Assembly: GCA_024699605.1 (NCBI GenBank)
Contig: JAILPJ010000073.1
Span: 1 to 64,000, forward strand
From: Desulfovibrio sp.
GTDB lineage: Bacteria > Desulfobacterota > Desulfovibrionia > Desulfovibrionales > Desulfovibrionaceae
Length of the DNA: 64,000 nt
Direction: 5' to 3'
The notes under the pieces were generated by a model. The model did no database searches, was not told the DNA's origin, and saw only the letters and a list, made by a program, of their open reading frames with translations. The position numbers were made by a program, and so were the translations under genes. Positions 36,726 to 37,398 of the stretch are shown here, piece after piece; within the stretch, counting starts at the first letter, position 1; each line of letters begins with the position of its first letter.

Positions 36726-36765
36726 AGATTCCCCCAGAAATTAGAAGGTTCAACTTTGTTGAACG

Positions 36766-36781
36766 AGCAATATACATGCCA
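36766..36781 (-). promoter_or_regulatory. Candidate sigma54 promoter for the dctP/amidohydrolase/TauE unit
   Basis: Reverse complement TGGCATG-TATA-TTGCT versus consensus TGGCACG-N4-TTGCW. Confidence 0.65.
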
Positions 36782-36885
36782 AAAAAAGGTGCCCCAAGCC
36801 TTCCTTTAACTATCTAATATATCAGGATTTTTTGGAGATTGCAAAGGCGCTGGGCAGCGCAGCGCCAGTCCAAGCCACCGTCTTT

Positions 36886-36901
36886 GTAGCAAATTTGCGA
36901 C
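36886..36901. promoter_or_regulatory. Palindromic operator/enhancer copy 1
   Basis: GTAGCAAATTTGCGAC, one mismatch to GTCGCAAATTTGCGAC. Confidence 0.6.
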
Positions 36902-37112
36902 GCTTGTGGCCGCTTGCTTGAGACGTGCGAGCTTGTTCTGCGAAAAAGCGCTCAAAGGCAGCCAAGGCGCAAAAACCGGATAGGCGTATATCCAATAAGA
37001 GAACGCTGCTCTGCCTGGACAACGGGCCTTTTTGGTCTCTGGCAGAGGCTATTTCGGAGTTAGGCTGAGCAATCTGGCCGAGTCTTGGACCTTGCCTTTT
37101 GACGGATCATTT

Positions 37113-37128
37113 GTCGCAAATTTGCGAC
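37113..37128. promoter_or_regulatory. Palindromic operator/enhancer copy 2 (perfect)
   Basis: GTCGCAAATTTGCGAC, perfect 16-bp palindrome. Confidence 0.65.
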
Positions 37129-37164
37129 GATTGAGAGCGCTATTTGGGCAATGGGCAAGAGATA

Positions 37165-37180
37165 GATGCAAATTTGCGAC
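37165..37180. promoter_or_regulatory. Palindromic operator/enhancer copy 3
   Basis: GATGCAAATTTGCGAC; centre 52 bp from copy 2. Confidence 0.6.
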
Positions 37181-37265
37181 TGGATAGGGCCGCCCTTTCT
37201 TGTGCTAGCTGAGTTTCCTAACAAAAAACGTGAAAAATGCTGACTTTTCAAGGACTTGCGGGAAA

Positions 37266-37281
37266 TGGCACAAGTCCTGCA
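37266..37281 (+). promoter_or_regulatory. Candidate sigma54 promoter for islA
   Basis: TGGCACA-AGTC-CTGCA versus consensus TGGCACG-N4-TTGCW with exact GG/GC spacing. Confidence 0.65.
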
Positions 37282-37398
37282 GAACGACGGCAAGACGAAC
37301 TTGTCCGCAATGCAGGAAAGGTTTTGCGTGCGGATCGAAGACGAGAAATCCTCAACGACGACTGCTTTCTCTTATGGAGAACAGTCAAGGAGTTTACC

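Follow-up and report, generated by a model that had tools for sequence, protein, structure and literature searches.

Gut and rumen Desulfovibrio-type bacteria respire isethionate and thereby form hydrogen sulfide. The closest described regulatory system was predicted by Kazakov et al. in 2015 (PMC4641369), who assigned DVU2827 sites and sigma54 promoters to a Desulfovibrionales operon, with an amidohydrolase gene included, and labelled the regulon 'pyruvate formate-lyase' ('PFL'). Knockout of islR in Desulfovibrio alaskensis G20 was later found to abolish growth on isethionate (Peck et al. 2019; PMC6386719), and this was the only study recovered from the literature on islR, or on isethionate together with sigma54, with no promoter work found. 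On the transport side, the IsePQM TRAP transporter of Oleidesulfovibrio alaskensis includes the isethionate-specific binding protein IseP (8T9T; PMC11668362). Since its sites were predicted in 2015 and growth on isethionate requires islR, the regulon is already known; it is its rewiring in the present genome that is unusual. The present analysis adds a candidate IslR site at base level, set in a fixed geometry, as well as a relocated islR and an orphan IseP, and the regulon labelled 'pyruvate formate-lyase' in 2015 is now tied to isethionate.

We analysed the 673 bp between dctP and islA (36726-37398) within a 64-kb window, the whole stretch of Desulfovibrio DNA under study. Like the DVU2827 regulon, the window holds candidate sites for a bacterial enhancer-binding protein (bEBP) and sigma54 promoters before an operon of a glycyl radical enzyme (GRE) and its activase, together with TRAP genes and, close by, a gene for an amidohydrolase. 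This likeness is drawn from the published description, which gives the site logo as a figure. A D. piger locus (L070) also fits that description, with an amidohydrolase-MFS pair divergent from islA (the MFS assignment made by eye from the translation) and a bEBP gene after islB. Unlike the regulon as published, the target here is isethionate sulfite-lyase rather than PFL, the bEBP gene lies outside the operon, between mutS2 and dnaG, and IseQM was not found. The islR of G20, a 'predicted regulator' in PMC6386719, is likened by that description to the islR on contig C49 of the present genome, each being a predicted regulator of the isethionate cluster.

The islA gene (37399-39891, + strand) encodes a GRE whose closest PDB match is the solved isethionate sulfite-lyase IslA, 7KQ3, with its ATG at 37399 aligning to residue 1 of that structure. 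By phmmer, the islA product scored 1523 bits against 7KQ3 versus 1221 against 6LON, which we take to be the HpsG structure. Retained in the product are R189, Q193, W374, C468, E470, R678, F682 and G805, the isethionate-binding and catalytic residues of IslA named in PMC8473560. The NCBIfam HpsG model (NF048011) matches both GREs of the genome and so cannot separate IslA from HpsG here; the name HpsG was rejected for islA on the structure-based residues and the closest PDB match. Downstream lie islB, encoding the activating enzyme (40019-40987, +), and a sodium:solute symporter gene (41233-42834, +), a candidate operon member that was found beside islAB only here and in a sister species (locus L069) and that is possibly a substitute importer for isethionate. 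A strong 16-pair hairpin occupies 39911-39946 between islA and islB, possibly in connection with differential expression of both.

Two oppositely oriented sigma54 -24/-12 elements claimed in the preliminary description were recovered at the same coordinates, TGGCACAAGTCCTGCA before islA (37266-37281, +) and TGGCATGTATATTGCT before dctP/iseP (36766-36781, -). Both have the form GG-N10-GC, with 0 mismatches to TGGCAYRNNNNNTGCW and a core that fits a TGGCAYR-N4-TTGCW-like consensus. The gaps to the respective ATGs measured 117 nt (islA, 37399) and 40 nt (dctP, 36725), one base shorter in each case than the ~118 and ~41 nt first given, and the start sites predicted from the sequence, ~11 nt past each -12 element, would fall at ~37293 and ~36754. 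Within the window alone, a relaxed pattern (up to two mismatches) gave no excess (46 matches vs 47.8 in shuffles); the stricter pattern (up to one mismatch) matched 174 times across the whole genome vs 63 for the reversed pattern, and the 673 bp held two such matches where ~0.04 were expected. A further palindrome, GTTCAACAAAGTTGAAC (window 36748-36764), straddles the predicted dctP start and may be a leader hairpin or an operator.

The three palindromes previously placed at -171, -120 and -138 proved real, with positions within 1-2 bases of those values. The perfect palindrome GTCGCAAATTTGCGAC (37113-37128) and GATGCAAATTTGCGAC (37165-37180), each with a profile score of 24.1, are centred at -172 and -120 from the predicted islA start and spaced by 52 bp, and GTAGCAAATTTGCGAC (36886-36901; score 18.9) is centred ~-139 from the predicted dctP start; these distances lie in the range of ~80-200 bp from the start taken for sigma54 systems. 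An addition to the earlier account is that one motif, GTYGCAAATTTGCRAC, is common to all three. A weak fourth copy, ACGCAAGTTTGCGA (37402-37415; score 16.5), sits inside islA coding sequence, within codons 2-6, and was judged probably incidental rather than a working site. Only 11 places in the genome are two or fewer mismatches from TCGCAAATTTGCGA, and four of these, the weak fourth copy included, fall inside a stretch of 530 bp here. Searching the genome with the strict pattern and a nearby sigma54 element gave no further IslR targets outside the window; a perfect GTTGCAATTTTGCAAC on contig C22 was set aside as it falls within a small coding gene.

Phylogenetic footprinting covered 79 loci with islA relatives and 72 islA upstream regions, comprising relatives and the window. 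A sigma54 element was present 60-300 nt before the islA ATG in 61 of the 72 regions, compared with 0 for the reversed pattern, 1 for the antisense strand and a mean of 0.7 (maximum 3) for shuffles, and before 69 of 663 other long ORFs of those loci. Many relatives also carry a divergent element at the corresponding position. A symmetric UAS profile derived from the palindrome, and seeded from the upstream regions that it then scanned, found 165 sites in 58 loci and 0 in length-matched DNA from within islA itself. Site positions clustered at -171 to -173 (n = 20) and -118 to -120 (n = 25), with shifted pairs at -97/-149 and -143/-197 in other clades; pairs were mostly spaced by 51-54 bp (42-43 bp in some loci), and the sites of divergent promoters lay mostly 136-139 bp from their own start. 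Such fixed positioning is what bEBP sites arrayed along a single face of the helix would show.

Of the loci with a linked IslR-type bEBP, 27 of 29 had at least two UAS. Four Mailhella loci (L091, L101, L102 and L105), whose linked bEBP is of another kind with a different HTH, had no UAS in the 700 nt before islA, a contrast that is weakened because dctP, not islA, may open that operon. One locus with an IslR-type bEBP (L076) also had no UAS within 700 nt. The dctP gene of the sister species (L069) is without a sigma54 element, and the loss of this promoter means that joint control of the two units is not universal or fixed.

The genome encodes rpoN and nine clear bEBPs. That no bEBP gene is visible in the window, as had been stated, is correct for the window itself but not beyond it: contig C49 encodes an IslR-type bEBP (islR, L132 7638-9098), ~76% identical over its whole length to bEBPs encoded after islB in relatives. 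Its domains are PAS, a sigma54-interaction AAA+ module carrying GAFTGA, and a helix-turn-helix of the Fis type. In the tree, C49 IslR pairs with the sister-species copy (100/99) and is nested among the islB-linked IslRs, which identifies it as a relocated IslR. The usual layout is islA-islB-islR, with islR after islB in at least 35 relatives, and the co-localisation of the regulator with islAB seen in most relatives does not hold in this genome. Here the gene order is rpsU-mutS2-islR-dnaG-rpoD, which places islR in an essential housekeeping operon, and in the sister genome rpsU-mutS2-[one other ORF]-islR-dnaG-rpoD (islR at L214 5492-6910); among the genomes examined only these two species have islR between mutS2 and dnaG, and mutS2-dnaG-rpoD runs uninterrupted, without islR, in ~20 other relatives. 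Because the relocation is present in two separate assemblies, a binning or assembly error is unlikely. AT-rich hypothetical ORFs occupy L069 13665-15038, between islB and the symporter gene, where islR would be expected.

We interpret the region as a divergent sigma54/bEBP control region in which IslR is the predicted activator of both the islAB and dctP units, a reading that, judged from sequence, we give a probability of about 0.88. As both species with an unlinked islR have retained the UAS, these sites can be argued to serve IslR acting in trans, and regulation of the isl promoters by IslR in trans is likely. IslR, a putative one-component bEBP, would bind the GTYGCAAATTTGCRAC palindromes as a pair at -120/-172 (islA) and singly at ~-139 (dctP), and would contact, through DNA looping, the RpoN-polymerase waiting at both -24/-12 elements. 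A different sigma54 control region, in D. vulgaris, is reported to need IHF (PMC3897727). Once isethionate or some related signal is sensed through PAS, ATP hydrolysis by IslR would open the promoters, such that islA-islB and iseP/dctP-amidohydrolase-tauE would be switched on together.

Footprinting, RpoN, the nine bEBPs and the IslR ortholog together support the original proposal that the sigma54 promoters are divergent and that their bEBP sites lie as far upstream as is usual. The broader proposal of a single switch for uptake, cleavage and sulfite export carries caveats: uptake is incomplete, as IseP has no IseQM permease in this genome, and sulfite export is a putative role, taken from a TauE Pfam match.

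The best-surviving alternative, which we nevertheless consider improbable, is that the promoters are sigma54-dependent whilst the palindromes are bound by another regulator, such as the paralogous bEBP encoded on contig C38, and that IslR has its targets at other places. Contig C38 carries an hpsG/hpsH-like second sulfonate GRE locus (L133 5997-9565 and 13892-15352) that resembles isl in its GRE and activase, its nearby PAS-AAA+-HTH bEBP, ~45% identical to IslR, and its nearly identical -24/-12 element, TGGCACAAGTCCTGCT, with one related site upstream (a weak IslR-like match at 5911, score 16.0). It differs from isl in that the GRE is 62% identical, with I at 682 where islA has F682, the bEBP belongs to another clade and there is only the one weak site. 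Moreover, this locus already has its own linked bEBP, and the palindrome pair tracks IslR-type bEBPs across loci (the 27 of 29 above) and is absent from loci linked to a bEBP of the C38/Mailhella type.

A reading more doubtful still takes the palindromes as operators at sigma70 promoters, bound by a repressor or by an ordinary activator, and the -24/-12 matches as incidental. Perfect palindromes of this size would also fit dimeric repressors, and a sigma70-like match does occur once on the dctP side; against this, sigma70-like matches were fewer than shuffling predicts (2 vs 6.1), the sigma54 elements recur in 61 of 72 regions and keep a constant distance to their sites, and positions 120-172 bp upstream are too far for classic repression. 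Chance occurrence of degenerate -24/-12 and palindrome matches in intergenic DNA, which the shuffle-level count of the relaxed pattern in the window alone would allow, is refuted by the footprinting, since the elements are conserved with fixed geometry over dozens of genomes, and is given next to no weight.

Returning to IslR as activator, its new location bears on how the circuit would behave. In the usual layout self-activation is expected because islR lies within the operon that it activates, in keeping with DVU2827 being encoded in a sigma54-dependent operon (PMC4641369). Lying between mutS2 and dnaG, islR is probably constitutive here, and the positive feedback of islA-islB-islR would thereby be lost; IslR self-activation has thus probably disappeared in this lineage, provided that islR in the usual layout has no promoter of its own. 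We lean towards a scenario in which islR moved from a self-activated operon to the rpsU-mutS2-dnaG-rpoD macromolecular-synthesis operon with its sites kept, giving an open-loop, growth-tied sensor alongside the loss of IseQM. If true, a switch with positive feedback would have given way to an open-loop one, in which the amount of sensor follows growth. Species with linked and relocated activators offer a natural circuit pair for probing the share of feedback in the response. An exact sigma54-type element is also present at L132 4332-4347, upstream of the rpsU-like gene that opens the mutS2-islR-dnaG-rpoD run.

The divergent unit begins with dctP (35709-36725, -), whose product is an ortholog of IseP (468 bits to 8T9T vs 167 to the next structure) and, in alignment with 8T9T, retains Ser95, Asn98, Tyr153, Arg156, Arg177, Asn217 and His244. 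It is followed by an amidohydrolase-family gene (34678-35517, -; PF04909), the start of which is uncertain, and ends with a gene for a TauE/SafE-family membrane protein (33887-34636, -; PF01925). A terminator-like hairpin follows the TauE gene (33835-33814, -) and no terminator-like sites were found on the - strand between the three genes, consistent with dctP-amidohydrolase-tauE forming one predicted unit. The amidohydrolase gene occurs in the isl loci of most relatives and has no known role in isethionate metabolism.

Unlike in O. alaskensis IsePQM, the window cluster is without the QM subunits. Relatives have a fused QM gene where only ~195 nt (35515-35708) separate dctP from the amidohydrolase gene here, and the fused IseQM gene is also missing in the sister species (L069 3432-3743). 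No relocated close IseQM was found in the genome, a draft at 94.7% completeness, in which the best match to the fused permease of relatives was 45% identical. By gene content, IseP is orphaned, the QM membrane subunits being missing from its cluster. The sister species has a second, complete TRAP cassette between dctP and islA (L069 4772-9374).
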